Origin: Candidatus Daviesbacteria bacterium
GTDB taxonomy: Bacteria > Patescibacteriota > Microgenomatia > Daviesbacterales > UBA10151
DNA: 55,736 nucleotides
Reading direction: 5' to 3'
Assembly: GCA_030699125.1 (NCBI GenBank)
Contig: JAUYKM010000014.1
Coordinates: forward strand, 1-55,736
The stretch's first letter is position 1, and the number at the start of each line of letters is the position of its first letter. The notes below the pieces were generated by a model. It was not told the origin of the DNA, did not search any database, and saw only the letters and a program-made list of their open reading frames with translations. The translations under genes were made by a program, and so were the position numbers. Below, piece by piece: positions 45,482 through 52,078 of this stretch.

Positions 45482-47689
45482 CTACTTGCTACTATCTACA
45501 ATTGTAGGCCAGTTTGTGATCATGACAGAGTTTTCTTTGTGAGGCAGTTTTTGCCAGAGTTCTTCTGTAATATATGGCATAAATGGGTGTAGGAGCTCTA
45601 AAGAAGTTTTCAAGACATATTCCAAAACCGGTTGAGCCTCAGCCCGCCTGTCTTTAGTGGATTCAATATATTTATCTGCAAACTCATGCCAGATAAATTC
45701 ATATAAAGCATCTGAGGCGTCATGAAATCTATAAGTATCCAAAGCTTTAGTGACTTTTTCTGCGGTTTTTGATAACTGTTCCAAAATTTGTTTATCCTGT
45801 GGATTGTCATCCCCGCGTAGGCGGGGATCCAATTCCGAACTGAACTTTTTTAATTGGATTCCTGCATTTGCAGGAATGACAGAAGGATCTAAATGTTTGG
45901 CATCCTCAGGTGCAAAATCGATGATAAATCTGCCAATATTCCAAAGTTTATTGGTAAAATTGCGCATGGCTTGCAGTTTGGGATGAGATATCGATTGATC
46001 ATGCCCGAAAGCTGTGCCATAAATTAGCGCCATACGGATGGCATCTGCCCCGTAAAGGTCAGCAACCTCAATTGGGTTAACCACGTTACCTTTGGATTTG
46101 CTCATTTTCTGGCCGAGAGGATCTAATACTTTCCCATGCAGGAGGATATCTTTAAAAGGCACTTTATTTGTTGCATAAATTCCCAACATTACCATCCTGG
46201 CTACCCAAAAAAGCAGGATATCATACATGGTTTCCATCACAGAGGTGGGATAAAATTTTTCAAAATCTCCTCCGCCAGCTGGCGCTAAGTCAGACTTGGC
46301 TGGCGGACGGGTGGATTGTAAGGTGGCATATGGCCACTGGCCGGAGGAAAACCAGGTATCAAATACATCACTGTCGCGCTCCAGATTGGCATTTTTGCAA
46401 TTGGGGCATACATCAGGTGTTTCACCCTCGGTAACAGTCCATTTTTTACACCCATCACAAAACCAGGCCGGGATTTGCATACCCCAGACAATTTGACGGG
46501 AGATATTCCAATCCCTGATATTTTTCAGCCAGTTAAAATAAGTTGTTTCCCAATTTTTGGGATAGATTTTAATATCGCCATTCTTGATTGCCTCAATTGC
46601 TTTTTTGGCCAAACCCTCTACTTTTATAAACCATTGCTCCAGAGGTAGAGGTTCTATCTCGGTGCCGCATTTATAGCAAGTTGCTACCCTGTTTTGATAC
46701 TCATAATCAATTTTTTCAATCAAACCTTTTTGCTCCATCTCGGAAGCTATAGTTTGCCTGGCTTCTTTTACTCTCATGCCAGAAAATTTACCTGCTTTTT
46801 CATTCAACCGGCCGTCATAGCCAATCACTTGGCGTATTTCCAAGTTATGTCTCTCTCCGATTTCAAAATCTATTGGAGCATGTGCAGGGGTAACTTTGAT
46901 TACACCTGTGCCAAACTCCGGATCTACTGCCTTATCTGCTATGACCTTAATTTTGGCTTTACCCAAAACAGTTTCAATCTCAATTTCTTTACCGATATAT
47001 TTCTGATAGCGTTTATCATCTGGATGAACTGCCACTGCTGTATCGCCAAATTTAGTTTCCAAACGAACTGTTGCCAGGGTCAGCGGGCCGTATTTGATGT
47101 AGTAAAGAGGGGTTTTTCTGTCCTCATAAATTACTTCCAGATCAGAAAAAGAAGTGCCATGTTTAGTACAATAATTAACTATTCTATTTCCTCTATAAAT
47201 TAAGCCCTCATCAAACATTTTCTTGAAAGTTTTATAAACAACTTTGACAATGTCCGGATCAAGGGTGAATTTATATCTGGACCAGTCCAGAGAAAAACCC
47301 AGTCTTTTAAGCTGTCCTTCCATGACCCCTTTATTATCTTGTACAAAGTCCCAAATCATTTGATAGAGAGTTTGTCTGTCATAATCAAAACGGGATTTGC
47401 CCTGAGACTCTAGGTGTTTTTCAAAAACTACCTGGGTTTCAAAGCCGGCATGATCTGCGCCGGGCAGCCAAAGAGTGCTGTCTCCTTTCATGCGGTGGTA
47501 TCTGATTAAAATATCTTCCACCGCATACATGGCATGACCAAAATGCAAGGGGGCGTTAGCATTAGGAGGAGGTAAAATTATGGTATATGGTTTACCATCA
47601 GGATTTATTTCAGGCTTAAAATAACCTGCCTCTTCCCAGATTTTATACCATTTAGGCTCAACTTTGGTCTGGTCATAAATTTTGTCCAT
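45482..47689 (-). CDS. valS: Valyl-tRNA synthetase
   Basis: A 735-residue class I synthetase. HIGH motif: PPPNANAPLHFGHAM (about 40-54); KMSKS in GQKMSKSKGNVVNP. The editing domain, zinc-ribbon Cys pairs (CDGCKKW, CPNC) and the anticodon-binding domain are present; the C-terminal coiled coil of longer ValRS is missing. Two mobile repeats are translated in it: the 25-codon VIPANAGIQ...LDPRLRGDD element and the PPAKSDLAPAGG element. It charges tRNA-Val. It converges with rplY. Confidence 0.95.
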   Translation of the reverse strand: MDKIYDQTKVEPKWYKIWEEAGYFKPEINPDGKPYTIILPPPNANAPLHFGHAMYAVEDILIRYHRMKGDSTLWLPGADHAGFETQVVFEKHLESQGKSRFDYDRQTLYQMIWDFVQDNKGVMEGQLKRLGFSLDWSRYKFTLDPDIVKVVYKTFKKMFDEGLIYRGNRIVNYCTKHGTSFSDLEVIYEDRKTPLYYIKYGPLTLATVRLETKFGDTAVAVHPDDKRYQKYIGKEIEIETVLGKAKIKVIADKAVDPEFGTGVIKVTPAHAPIDFEIGERHNLEIRQVIGYDGRLNEKAGKFSGMRVKEARQTIASEMEQKGLIEKIDYEYQNRVATCYKCGTEIEPLPLEQWFIKVEGLAKKAIEAIKNGDIKIYPKNWETTYFNWLKNIRDWNISRQIVWGMQIPAWFCDGCKKWTVTEGETPDVCPNCKNANLERDSDVFDTWFSSGQWPYATLQSTRPPAKSDLAPAGGGDFEKFYPTSVMETMYDILLFWVARMVMLGIYATNKVPFKDILLHGKVLDPLGQKMSKSKGNVVNPIEVADLYGADAIRMALIYGTAFGHDQSISHPKLQAMRNFTNKLWNIGRFIIDFAPEDAKHLDPSVIPANAGIQLKKFSSELDPRLRGDDNPQDKQILEQLSKTAEKVTKALDTYRFHDASDALYEFIWHEFADKYIESTKDRRAEAQPVLEYVLKTSLELLHPFMPYITEELWQKLPHKENSVMITNWPTIVDSSK
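45806..45880. repeat. Composite palindromic element, copy 5, in valS
   Basis: GTCATCCCCGCGTAGGCGGG (continuing GATCC) and GGATTCCTGCATTTGCAGGA (continuing ATGAC) in 75 bp, exactly 25 codons. On the coding strand it yields VIPANAGIQ and LDPRLRGDD at its ends. It is inserted in the linker preceding the anticodon-binding domain. Confidence 0.88.
46272..46306. repeat. 35-bp CCGCCAGC...GCTGGCGG element, copy B (in valS)
   Basis: Reverse-oriented copy of the rnpA element, three mismatches in 35 bp. On the coding strand it encodes PPAKSDLAPAGG, in a surface loop between the FSSGQWPYATLQ and FEKFYPTSVMET segments. Confidence 0.85.
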
Positions 47690-48185: not shown

Positions 48186-49283
48186 CTATAGGGATAAATT
48201 TGGGTTTGCTTGGAGAACTAAAGGATCTATTTTTTTGTTTATAAAAAAAGCTGCTGAGGCTATCATAGCAGCATTGTCTGTACAAAGCTGGGGTGGTGGA
48301 ATGTGCAATTTTATTCCTAGTTCCTTGCACCTAGTTCCTAGTTCCAGTTTAAGTTTCTGATTTGCTGCCACGCCACCGGCAATCATGATATCTTTCACAG
48401 GATATTTTTTTAAAGCAAGCAAAACTTTGGCAATTAATGATTGGACAATTGTTTCCTCAATTGCTGCCGCCAAATCAGCTTTCTTGCTGTCACCTATAAC
48501 CTGTCCACTGTTAACTATTCTAGCCACTGCAGTTTTAAGCCCCGAGTAGGAAAAATCCAAATCTTTTGATTCTTTCATGGGAACAGGCAATTTAAATCTC
48601 AAGGCCTGGCCTTGTGAGGCTAATTTGGAAATTTCCGGACCACCAGGGTAGGGTAACCCTAAGAGTCTGGCGCATTTATCGAAGCATTCCCCGGCAGCAT
48701 CATCACGGGTTCCACCCAGGTATTTATATTTGCCATGGTCTGTAAATAAAACTAAGTCTGTATGTCCGCCGGAAACAAGTAAGCCGAGGCAAGGGAATTT
48801 GGGTAAGTCGTCAGGCGTCAGTCGTCGGTCGTCAGACTTTTTTTGTCTTCTGTCTGATAGCTGATAGCTGATAGCTGAAGACTGACTGATCCAATTGGCA
48901 TAAAAATGGCCAAGTAAATGGTTGACTGGAATAAGTGGTTTATTCCATATAGTAGCCAGAACTTTAGTTGTCTCTACTCCAACTAAAAGTGAGCCAATTA
49001 ATCCCGGGCCGTATGTCACTGCAATGGCATCGATTTCCTGTCCACTGTAACCTGCAACCCGTAGACCTTCCTGTATCACCGGAATAATGCTTTTAATCTG
49101 TTCTCTCGCAGCCTGTTCCGGAATTATTCCTCCATATTTAGCTTGTAAGGAAGCAGATGAAGCCACAACATTGGATAAAATTTTTATTCGTTTTAGATCA
49201 GATCGCAAGCTCTGCTTATCGTTATTCGTCAATACAGCAGCTGCTGTCTCATCACAAGAAGTTTCTATTCCAAGTATTATCAT
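48186..49283 (-). CDS. tsaD: tRNA N6-threonylcarbamoyladenosine transferase TsaD
   Basis: A 365-residue protein. It starts MIILGIETSCDETAAAVL, has the metal-binding NHLLGH (about 118-123), LVSGGHTDLV, and AGGVAANQKL, all conserved in the Kae1/TsaD family. It makes t6A37 in tRNAs reading ANN codons together with TsaB/C/E. About 27 residues (SSAISYQLSDRRQKKSDDRR and on) encoded by short tandem repeats are inserted after HFYANW, and the C-terminus has a TAGTTCC-repeat segment. The enzyme probably tolerates both. Confidence 0.94.
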   Translation of the reverse strand: MIILGIETSCDETAAAVLTNNDKQSLRSDLKRIKILSNVVASSASLQAKYGGIIPEQAAREQIKSIIPVIQEGLRVAGYSGQEIDAIAVTYGPGLIGSLLVGVETTKVLATIWNKPLIPVNHLLGHFYANWISQSSAISYQLSDRRQKKSDDRRLTPDDLPKFPCLGLLVSGGHTDLVLFTDHGKYKYLGGTRDDAAGECFDKCARLLGLPYPGGPEISKLASQGQALRFKLPVPMKESKDLDFSYSGLKTAVARIVNSGQVIGDSKKADLAAAIEETIVQSLIAKVLLALKKYPVKDIMIAGGVAANQKLKLELGTRCKELGIKLHIPPPQLCTDNAAMIASAAFFINKKIDPLVLQANPNLSL

Positions 49284-49351: not shown

Positions 49352-50194
49352 ATGTCAATGAACTATGAAAGAGCTTCACAAGGGATTTTAGAAGCAGACG
49401 CAGTAAAATATGCTGAAGGTATAAGGGAAATGAATGCTCTTGCTAATTCTTTACAGAGGGAGGGTAAATTACCAGTAGAATTTTCAGAGCCTGTTATTGA
49501 AACACCGACAGCTGTAGTAACTCCTGCGCTACAAGACAGACAACTTAGAGATGCTCTTCGTCCTTTTGTACAAGAATACAAAGATGCAAAAGTCCATACT
49601 CCGGAATTAGTTGATCATACTTGGCAAAATATGTGGGGAGAAATAGGAAGAGCTGTTGATTTTAAATATCAAGTCCCATCTTGTGATCGCGCTAGAGAAG
49701 AATTAGCACAGTTAAGAAAAGAGAATAAAGCAGTCTTACTTTTGCCGGATGATATATTTACCCCCGAAGGGTTAGTGAGATTTGGTAGAGCCTTTCCTTT
49801 AATGAGAAGTTGGACTACTGATCCAGAACATGCGGCAAAAATTTCATATGGATCAAACATCGGCGGTTGTATTGATATTGAGATGAGCCTTGATGCTCCT
49901 TATAGAACTTCCAAGGGATACAAACAAAAAGAATTAGTAGATAAAATTGCAGCTGATAAAAGAGCTGGCCAAAGATTACCAACCTACTTTGTTGGTTCGG
50001 AGTTCAGCCAACTTTTAACTGGACACTATTTTGATGAGAATACTTGGTCAAGACTCCCTGAGTCTTTCAGCGAGGGCAGCATGTTGGTTGCTCACTTCCG
50101 CTCAGATGGTAGCGCGGATGTCAACGCCTACTGGCATCCTGAGCTTCGGAGTCCGGACTTGGGTGGGCGTTCTGAGGGAGTAAAAAGAGCTTAA
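49352..50194 (+). CDS. DGR target (variable) protein, C-type-lectin-fold C-terminus expected
   Basis: A 280-residue protein without signal peptide or TM helix. The last ~45 residues, from PESFSEGSML (residue 236) to GGRSEG, are encoded by the variable repeat. Targets of this class display hypervariable residues on a C-type-lectin fold (family knowledge); the conserved framework F-S--G-W-P---GGR is visible. The N-terminal 200 residues are helical and not recognised; a Trp-rich part (PELVDHTWQNMWGEIGRA) lies near 85-103. Since it seems cytoplasmic or non-classically exported, its ligand is unclear. Confidence 0.85.
   Translation: MSMNYERASQGILEADAVKYAEGIREMNALANSLQREGKLPVEFSEPVIETPTAVVTPALQDRQLRDALRPFVQEYKDAKVHTPELVDHTWQNMWGEIGRAVDFKYQVPSCDRAREELAQLRKENKAVLLLPDDIFTPEGLVRFGRAFPLMRSWTTDPEHAAKISYGSNIGGCIDIEMSLDAPYRTSKGYKQKELVDKIAADKRAGQRLPTYFVGSEFSQLLTGHYFDENTWSRLPESFSEGSMLVAHFRSDGSADVNAYWHPELRSPDLGGRSEGVKRA
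50057..50177 (+). repeat. DGR variable repeat (VR)
   Basis: This 121-bp segment aligns without gaps to 50497-50617. There are 19 differences, and at all 19 the template copy has A (11 become G, 5 C, 3 T). Thirteen change an amino acid, mostly Asn codons (AAY) turned into Ser, Val, His, Arg, Asp, Ala, Tyr or Leu. Homology ends at 50177; position 50178 (G versus T) is the first non-A mismatch. Confidence 0.97.
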
Positions 50195-50224
50195 ATCTTT
50201 GACCTTTTGATCTTCTTTGTTCCT

Positions 50225-50252
50225 TTGAACTTCTGTTTTTTTCTGCTATGCT
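50225..50252 (+). promoter_or_regulatory. Possible promoter for the TR RNA
   Basis: TTGAAC (50225-50230), 16-bp spacer, TATGCT (50247-50252). Transcription from about 50259 would produce an RNA with two leader hairpins before TR. Confidence 0.4.
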
Positions 50253-50280
50253 AAATTTGAAAGTAGGTTAATGCATCTCT

Positions 50281-50355
50281 CCTCAAGTGAGGATTGGTCA
50301 CCGAAATTATTGTTTTTCAACAAACTGTCAGAATTTCATAGTCCATGGACTATGA
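50281..50355 (+). other. Hairpin-rich leader upstream of the template repeat
   Basis: CCTCA-AG-TGAGG (50281-50292) and a perfect 20-bp palindrome TCATAGTCCATGGACTATGA (50336-50355), followed at 50408-50424 by a CCTGAGCTTGTCGAAGG repeat. The 302 bp between the target gene and TR carry no convincing gene; these structures may belong to the TR RNA. Confidence 0.5.
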
Positions 50356-50407
50356 GAGAGTACACTAGAAAGACAAGACACTCCTTGTTTGATACTGGTG
50401 GAGATGT

Positions 50408-50424
50408 CCTGAGCTTGTCGAAGG
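50408..50424. repeat. CTTCGAC/CTCAGGG-type repeat, copy 4
   Basis: CCTGAGCTTGTCGAAGG, the reverse complement of the core of the copy at 17710-17728. It lies between the target gene and TR. Confidence 0.7.
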
Positions 50425-50496
50425 ACTACTCCCGGATAAAATACAGTGGTAAGAGAAATCAAACCGCAGTGGAAAAGAAGGTATCAGACAAATAAA

Positions 50497-50617
50497 CCTG
50501 AGTCTTTCAACGAAGGCAGCATGTTGAATGCTAACTTCAACTCAGATGGTAACGCGAATGTCAACAACAACTGGAATCCTGAGAATCAGAATCCGAACTT
50601 GGGTGGACGTTCTGAGG
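50497..50617 (+). repeat. DGR template repeat (TR)
   Basis: The template for mutagenic retrohoming, with 37 adenines in 121 bp. Read in the VR frame it encodes an Asn-packed ladder (ANFNSDGNANVNNNWNPENQ), typical of TRs whose AAY codons are meant to be mutated. Nineteen of its 37 adenines differ in VR. It is on the same strand as the target and the RT. Confidence 0.96.
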
Positions 50618-50632
50618 TAGAGTCTTGTCTCT

Positions 50633-51055
50633 CTATATTGTTTTTAGGGATTTTCTCCACCCTCCAAGCATCCGACCGATCTCTTGGAGGGAAGATTCAA
50701 GCTGTAGATATTTTTTGTTATCTAGTGCTTGGATATCTTTTGCAAGCCTTATTAGGATTTTTAGGAGATCTAAGGAAACAATACTCTTTTCAATTATAGG
50801 CAACTTTCTCTCTTGGGTTAAGTTCCCTGCCATAATAATTAATTCAAATAGTTCCAGAGTGAGATTATCCAGCCTTTGACCCAAGCTGTAGCGGTCTTTT
50901 TTAGGGAAGAGTTTTAAGTACTGATACAATAACTTGTAGAAGTCGTAAATTTTTTGAAATATGGGGATATTAAAATCGTTACCTGTCCTGTCCTGTCCTG
51001 TCCTGTCCTGTCCTGTCCTGTCCTGTCCTGAGCCCTCGCTTGGGTAATTATTCAT
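50633..51055 (-). CDS. avd: DGR accessory protein Avd (four-helix bundle)
   Basis: A 140-residue protein. Residues about 30-140 match Avd proteins: LKLFPKKDRYSLGQRLDNLT, LELFELIIMAG, and SSLQEIGRMLGGWRKSL, a pattern found next to DGR RTs. Avd is a pentameric RNA/RT-binding partner required for mutagenic cDNA synthesis. Here it lies antisense between TR and RT. The N-terminus MNNYPSEGSGQDRTGQDRTG encodes three GQDRT units from the pentanucleotide tract and is not part of the fold; a change of one repeat unit would frameshift the gene. Confidence 0.88.
   Translation of the reverse strand: MNNYPSEGSGQDRTGQDRTGQDRTGNDFNIPIFQKIYDFYKLLYQYLKLFPKKDRYSLGQRLDNLTLELFELIIMAGNLTQERKLPIIEKSIVSLDLLKILIRLAKDIQALDNKKYLQLESSLQEIGRMLGGWRKSLKTI
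50982..51030. repeat. Pentanucleotide repeat CCTGT x 9.8
   Basis: Nine complete CCTGT units and a final CCTG. The tract lies 25 bp inside the avd coding region, between ATG and the folded domain, and 25 bp before the RT start codon. Five is not a multiple of three, so each gain or loss of a unit changes the avd frame. Such tracts are classic substrates for slipped-strand phase variation. Confidence 0.95.
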
Positions 51056-52078
51056 ATGTTGTATTCCCAGCTTATCTCAATTGAACACTTGTTACAAGCC
51101 TGGGAGGAGTTTAAAGTTGGTAAAAGAAACAAATCTGATGTCCAAAACTTTGAAAGAAATCTTGAGAACAGTCTGTTTTCCCTTCACCGCGACTTGAAAG
51201 AGAGAGTTTACCAGCATGCCAGCTATACGGCTTTTAATATTTATGATCCAAAATTCCGCCATATCCATAAAGCTAGAGTTCGAGATAGAATCGTTCATCA
51301 TGCAGTAGTTTCTTTAATTGAGCCTCTTTTTGATAAAACTTTTATCTATGACTCTTATTCTTGTCGGGATAATAAGGGTAGTCATAAAGCAGTTACCAGA
51401 TTGGCCATTTTCATAAGAAAGATCAGCAAAAACTATACTGGGAACTGTTTTGTTTTAAAACTAGACGTAAAGAAGTTTTTTGCCAATGTTAACCAAACTA
51501 TTTTATTTGATTGCATCAAAAAGAGAGTGGAGGATCCGGATCTCCTCTGCTTGATTAAAAATATTCTTGGTAGTTTTTCCAATAATACTGGTATTCCAAT
51601 TGGTAATCTAACTTCACAAATATTTGCCAATATTTATCTAAATGAGCTGGATCAATTTGTAAAGCATGTCCTAAAAGAAAAGTACTACATCCGTTATTGT
51701 GATGATTTTACTATTGTTTCACCCACCAAAAGGCATCTAGAAAACCTAATCCCTCAAATAGAAACCTTTCTTAATGAAAAACTCAGATTATCATTGCACG
51801 AAGGTAAAATAGTTATCAGAAAATATACTCAAGGGGTAGATTTCCTCGGTTATATTATCATGCCCCATGTGATTTTACCTCGGACAAAAACTAGAAGAAG
51901 GGTTTTTAAAAAACTTAGAGAAAAGATTAATAATCTACAAACGGGGATAGTTTCGGAAGGATCATTTAATCAGTCACTGCAATCATACTTAGGATATTTA
52001 GGTCATGCCAATAGTTATAAACTCACTCAAAAACTAAAAAATCAAATTTGGATTTGGGAATCAAAGAGTAATAATTAG
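51056..52078 (+). CDS. DGR reverse transcriptase
   Basis: A 340-residue RT. The first catalytic Asp is in VLKLDVKKFFANV (residue 137). GIPIGNLTSQIFANIYLNEL is the motif-4 form characteristic of DGR and retron-like RTs (SQ instead of the QGxxxSP of group II introns). YIRYCDDF holds the catalytic YCDD (214-217). No maturase or endonuclease domain follows. Its ATG is divergent from avd with no space between (CATATG). A TAATTA box 5 nt before the ATG could be its -10, which would place the -35 inside the repeat tract. Confidence 0.95.
   Translation: MLYSQLISIEHLLQAWEEFKVGKRNKSDVQNFERNLENSLFSLHRDLKERVYQHASYTAFNIYDPKFRHIHKARVRDRIVHHAVVSLIEPLFDKTFIYDSYSCRDNKGSHKAVTRLAIFIRKISKNYTGNCFVLKLDVKKFFANVNQTILFDCIKKRVEDPDLLCLIKNILGSFSNNTGIPIGNLTSQIFANIYLNELDQFVKHVLKEKYYIRYCDDFTIVSPTKRHLENLIPQIETFLNEKLRLSLHEGKIVIRKYTQGVDFLGYIIMPHVILPRTKTRRRVFKKLREKINNLQTGIVSEGSFNQSLQSYLGYLGHANSYKLTQKLKNQIWIWESKSNN

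Follow-up and report, generated by a model that had tools for sequence, protein, structure and literature searches.

The DGR locus

The subject of this study is a diversity-generating retroelement (DGR) in a 55,736-nt stretch of DNA, referred to here as the window, from contig JAUYKM010000014.1 of the Candidatus Daviesbacteria assembly GCA_030699125.1, and in particular a short tandem repeat that may make this element phase-variable. The genome is 1.13 Mb in size, and the organism is a tiny, Microgenomates-type member of the Patescibacteria, probably with a host-dependent lifestyle. Along the + strand, the element consists of a target gene containing the variable repeat (VR), the template repeat (TR), the accessory gene avd on the minus strand, and the gene for the reverse transcriptase (RT); their coordinates are given in Table 1.

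Table 1. Features of the DGR locus, with positions numbered from the first base of the window
Feature	Position	Strand	Description
DGR target gene	49352..50194	+	280 aa; intact open reading frame; VR at C-terminus
Variable repeat (VR)	50057..50177	+	121 nt; 19 differences from TR, all at TR A
Template repeat (TR)	50497..50617	+	121 nt; rich in AAC/AAT codons
avd	50633..51055	-	140 aa; between TR and RT; conserved core from residue 31
(CCTGT)9.8 perfect tandem array	50982..51030		in 5' coding part of avd, between start codon and core
avd start codon ATG	51053..51055	-	sole in-frame ATG/GTG/TTG for avd core
DGR reverse transcriptase (RT)	51056..52078	+	340 aa; intact; YCDD; IGNLTSQ

An earlier note on this DNA had claimed that VR and TR differ only at TR adenines. 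In a gap-free alignment at an offset of 440, all 19 mismatches among the 121 positions were indeed at TR adenines, with 11 changes of A to G, 5 of A to C, and 3 of A to T. Because TR contains 37 adenines, the hypergeometric probability of this adenine-only pattern is 2.6e-12. Twelve of the codons altered in VR are AAC or AAT in the target frame, and none of the changes created a stop codon. No TR-like sequence other than this VR and this TR was found in the genome, which encodes one RT of the DGR type.

The YCDD and IGNLTSQ motifs of RT are conserved across 16 aligned relatives, and the second agrees with the pattern (I/V/L)GxxxSQ. RT matched PF00078 (2.2e-25) and phrog_1423 (2e-110), and its best PDB profile match was 8ub7, 'Reverse transcriptase' (E 6e-60), which we take to be the RT of the BPP-1 DGR. 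Avd was matched in three libraries, by PF22296 (4.4e-21), NF033474 (1.1e-24), and phrog_3206 (5.8e-28). These results bear out the intact RT and the Avd of the earlier note, which did not mention that avd lies on the minus strand. With the VR/TR pair, RT, and Avd all present, the locus is a genuine, complete DGR with adenine mutagenesis, as had been proposed; on its own, it would be an ordinary example of a familiar type of element.

The avd and RT genes are divergent, and their start codons abut (CAT followed directly by ATG). Because avd lies on the minus strand between TR and RT, a + strand RNA containing TR and RT would carry avd in antisense. In the window (50618–51055) and in relatives, the RNA 3' of TR, which in BPP-1 contains the priming spacer, is the antisense of avd; the bases here may therefore be doubly constrained, by the protein code and by guide RNA structure. 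A search of Rfam gave no match.

A tandem repeat within avd

The more interesting feature of this locus went unnoticed in the earlier note. The (CCTGT)9.8 array encodes avd residues 9 to 25, downstream of the ATG at 51055 and upstream of the core, and no other array of this unit occurs in the genome. The sequence of the N-terminal extension is MNNYPSEGSGQDRTG.... With no other in-frame ATG, GTG, or TTG available to the core, translation of Avd would have to pass through the array. When the copy number was changed in silico, avd was open at the assembled number and at plus or minus 3 units, whereas changes of plus or minus 1, 2, or 4 units gave peptides of 18–53 aa. Judged by its reading frame, avd at this locus is assembled in the ON phase. 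The RT start lies beyond the array, so only Avd would be gated here.

These observations qualify the statement in the earlier note that the system looks active. Past activity is supported by the pattern of VR changes, and present potential by the in-frame avd; however, activity is predicted to be gated by the avd tract, and most of the tract-bearing relatives described below were assembled OFF.

Tracts at related avd/RT junctions

Related DGRs were gathered by RT searches of genomes and by collection scans with region fetches, which gave 295 loci, from which duplicates were then removed. Of the 186 cellular loci, 183 have avd antisense to TR and divergent from RT; of the 79 viral relatives, 68 have it upstream of RT in the same orientation. 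Cellular loci that were named in their records belonged, with few exceptions, to Patescibacteria. Tracts were surveyed in 192 non-redundant divergent junctions, in which the sequence separating the Avd core from the RT core totals 12.2 kb, and the expected numbers were derived from 1.16 Mb of flanking sequence; a poly-G run was scored when it contained at least 8 bases.

A tract was present at the same avd/RT site in 122 of the 192 junctions, where about 0.3 were expected. Poly-G runs of 8–13 bases occurred in 82 junctions (0.05 expected), dinucleotide arrays in 36 (0.2 expected), CCTGT arrays in 3 (0.03 expected), and a tetranucleotide array in 1; no trinucleotide tract was found in any of the 192. 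No tract was found close to the start of avd or of RT in the 68 viral DGRs with same-strand avd. The genome G004, about 1.1 Mb in size, contains six DGRs (L028, L029, L030, L032, L035, and L039) with differing tract units, of which one is predicted to be ON, four are predicted to be OFF, and one has no tract.

Such tracts might be incidental microsatellites, or structural elements in DNA or RNA, without a role in switching, in which case the locus would be an ordinary Patescibacteria DGR. A few other short tandem repeats do occur in Patescibacteria genomes, and 70 junctions are free of tracts. The enrichment, however, is hundreds-fold at a single site of about 65 nt, and the motifs found there (G, GT, GA, CT, and CCTGT) are unrelated and include no unit of 3. 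Tract type is clustered on the RT tree, yet it requires about 39 changes. Beyond every tract a frame with an ATG has also been maintained: it began no more than 60 nt past the tract in 122 of 122 loci, as compared with a mean of 48 and a maximum of 66 in shuffled sequences. A tract without a switching role, whether incidental or structural, is disfavored by these results, and we consider it very improbable.

Poly-G tracts are not confined to DGRs. Among 12 genomes, 15 of 33 distinct tracts of at least 9 G's sit at DGR junctions; a few lie away from DGRs, on contigs C5 and C9 of G546 and in G444, G445, G049, G594, and G586. These distant tracts are possible markers of further phase-variable genes in Patescibacteria.

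Reading frames of Avd and RT

None of the 122 tract-bearing loci has an ATG between the tract and the Avd core. Avd was in frame with its start in only 32 of these 122 loci, as compared with 66 of the 70 loci without a tract (Fisher p=1e-21), and the in-frame share was statistically indistinguishable from one third (p=0.10). All three phases were represented. In single-frame loci with poly-G, the number of nucleotides to be added for the ON phase was 0 in 14 loci, 1 in 19, and 2 in 37; for dinucleotide arrays the corresponding counts were 3, 14, and 12. On the RT tree, the ON and OFF states showed no phylogenetic signal (30 changes, as compared with a shuffled mean of 28), as expected if switching is fast.

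The tract could instead be a site of programmed frameshifting or transcriptional slippage, with some Avd always made and its level tuned without heritable switching. Poly-C and poly-G can promote slippage, and all 82 of the 82 poly-G tracts have their G's on the RT strand. A programmed shift would be expected to fix one phase, however, whereas all three occur, and the relatives without a tract simply have an in-frame start. GT, GA, CT, and CCTGT arrays, moreover, are poor frameshift sites. We therefore regard this explanation as unlikely.

The out-of-frame loci might also be dying DGRs or assembly errors, so that the proportion of one third would have no biological meaning. A small number of loci are indeed defective: L045 has a short RT, and L079 and L086 have a split RT. 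In the out-of-frame loci generally, however, the Avd and RT cores were intact. Among OFF loci with enough flanking sequence, 76 of 82 retained a TR/VR pair with changes at adenines only, and about 60% of the TR adenines were changed, as in ON loci. The ratio of nonsynonymous to synonymous substitution rates (dN/dS) for avd was 0.09–0.38 in tract-bearing pairs, saturated pairs having been excluded, which indicates purifying selection. Out-of-frame lengths were equally common among di- and pentanucleotide arrays and among homopolymers, and 94% of the loci without a tract were in frame. Decay or misassembly as a general explanation is thus extremely improbable.

In 32 loci there is no RT start between the tract and the RT core, so RT as well must be read through the tract. 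Where both genes pass through the tract and each has a single open phase, the ON phases of RT and Avd agreed in 18 of 18 cases; unrelated phases would be expected to agree in one third of cases. This agreement suggests selection for joint switching of RT and Avd.

Probable phase variation of a DGR

The reading that best accommodates these data, and that we hold to be very likely, is that the locus is a genuine Patescibacteria DGR whose accessory protein Avd is phase-variable, with slipped-strand changes in the tract switching targeted hypermutation on and off. Replication slippage would alter the copy number of the tract and thereby move avd into or out of frame. Where the unit length of a tract is not a multiple of three, genes are switched at a rate of about 1e-3 per division (PMC11475388), and in a reconstituted BPP-1 DGR, inactivation of Avd cut retrohoming to about 1e-9 (PMC12875486). 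A lineage could thus toggle reversibly between an Avd ON state, in which mutagenic retrohoming would generate new VR variants, and an Avd OFF state, in which the current VR would be frozen. An alternative open frame is kept ready beyond every tract, and in the 32 relatives noted above a single slip would gate both RT and Avd.

We also think it probable, with somewhat less confidence, that this arrangement extends across Patescibacteria. Targeted hypermutation would then be subject to a heritable stochastic switch, namely a repeat that slips where the 5' ends of the antiparallel avd and RT genes meet. About a third of lineages would have the mutator on and the others would have it off, in some cases with both proteins gated, and there would have been many gains, losses, and changes of unit type of the tract.

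Several observations weigh against this interpretation. The requirement for Avd was established in BPP-1 rather than in this clade. Because 70 of the 192 junctions have no tract, switching is not essential to these elements. The loci share descent, so the survey counts are not fully independent. In 21 of the 122 tract-bearing loci there is an in-frame TTG or GTG, but no ATG, on the core side of the tract, in 13 cases at the very edge of the core, and some leaky expression of Avd is therefore possible. Finally, we found no near-identical contigs that differ in tract length, nor any close pair with conserved flanks; the identical viral contigs L332 and L333 have no tract in either.

The element resembles BPP-1-type DGRs in having RT, Avd, TR, VR at the C-terminus of the target, and adenine-only substitutions. 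In those DGRs, however, avd lies on the same strand between VR and TR, whereas here it is antisense to TR and RT, divergent from RT, and contains a putative phase-variable repeat. Its host range suggests that this DGR belongs to 'DGR clade 2', which is restricted to Patescibacteria (Roux et al. 2021, PMC8144416).

With simple sequence repeat contingency loci, such as those of Campylobacter and Neisseria (PMC11475388), it shares an unstable non-triplet tract near the 5' coding end, an in-frame proportion of about one third among alleles, and very high local enrichment. The tract at this locus lies downstream of the only start, and changes in unit number would give a full-length or a truncated product. 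The known loci switch a surface protein or a methyltransferase; here the accessory factor of a targeted mutator would be switched, and a single tract can control two genes that lie antiparallel. Phasevarions, which are based on phase-variable DNA methyltransferases (PMC11475388), likewise place a phase-variable master gene over a second layer of variation, but that layer is the methylation and expression of many genes rather than targeted mutation of one gene.

A full-text literature search, which did not reach the majority of subscription papers, Paul et al. 2017 among them, found no paper reporting a phase-variable repeat in a DGR. A phase-variable Avd is thus a probable, though not certain, new variation on the known DGR, and the comparative support for it is strong. 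The natural regulation of DGR activity has been called 'an exciting frontier' (PMC12875486). A phase-variable Avd, if real, would provide a simple answer for a large group of cellular DGRs and would bring contingency loci and DGRs, both classic mechanisms of diversity, together at a single locus: an ON cell would explore VR variants, and its descendants could keep a good variant by slipping OFF. The idea is testable from existing metagenome reads by comparing tract length with VR diversity. In most of these elements, gene callers can be expected to overlook avd or cut it short, and sometimes RT as well.

The target protein and neighboring sequences

The target protein had no match in Pfam, PHROG, or NCBIfam and no convincing match in PDB. 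The earlier note had stated that it has no signal peptide, and none is obvious at the N-terminus by eye. Its C-terminus, which carries VR, ends in GGRSEGVKRA, and a single-sequence fold (pLDDT 37) provided no usable model for comparison with C-type lectin or Ig folds.

A paralog of the target in the same genome (G000:C1:49024-49671, minus strand; locus L053) has 38% identity to it and shares a C-terminal GGRxEGVKxA, with no adjoining RT or TR. This gene was considered as a second VR acting in trans and was rejected, because only 69% of the non-A positions of TR match; it is therefore not a current target of the DGR. It is probably an undiversified paralog or a fossil VR.

At 48806–48878 in the window, tsaD has an in-frame insert made up of the short tandem repeats AGTCGTC and CTGATAG. 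A CTGATAG-like sequence also adjoins the target paralog on contig C1, so the tsaD insert looks like a dispersed repeat element. The valS gene (45482–47689) likewise contains an in-frame insert, SVIPANAGIQ...LDPRLRGDDN, that resembles a translated palindromic repeat element.
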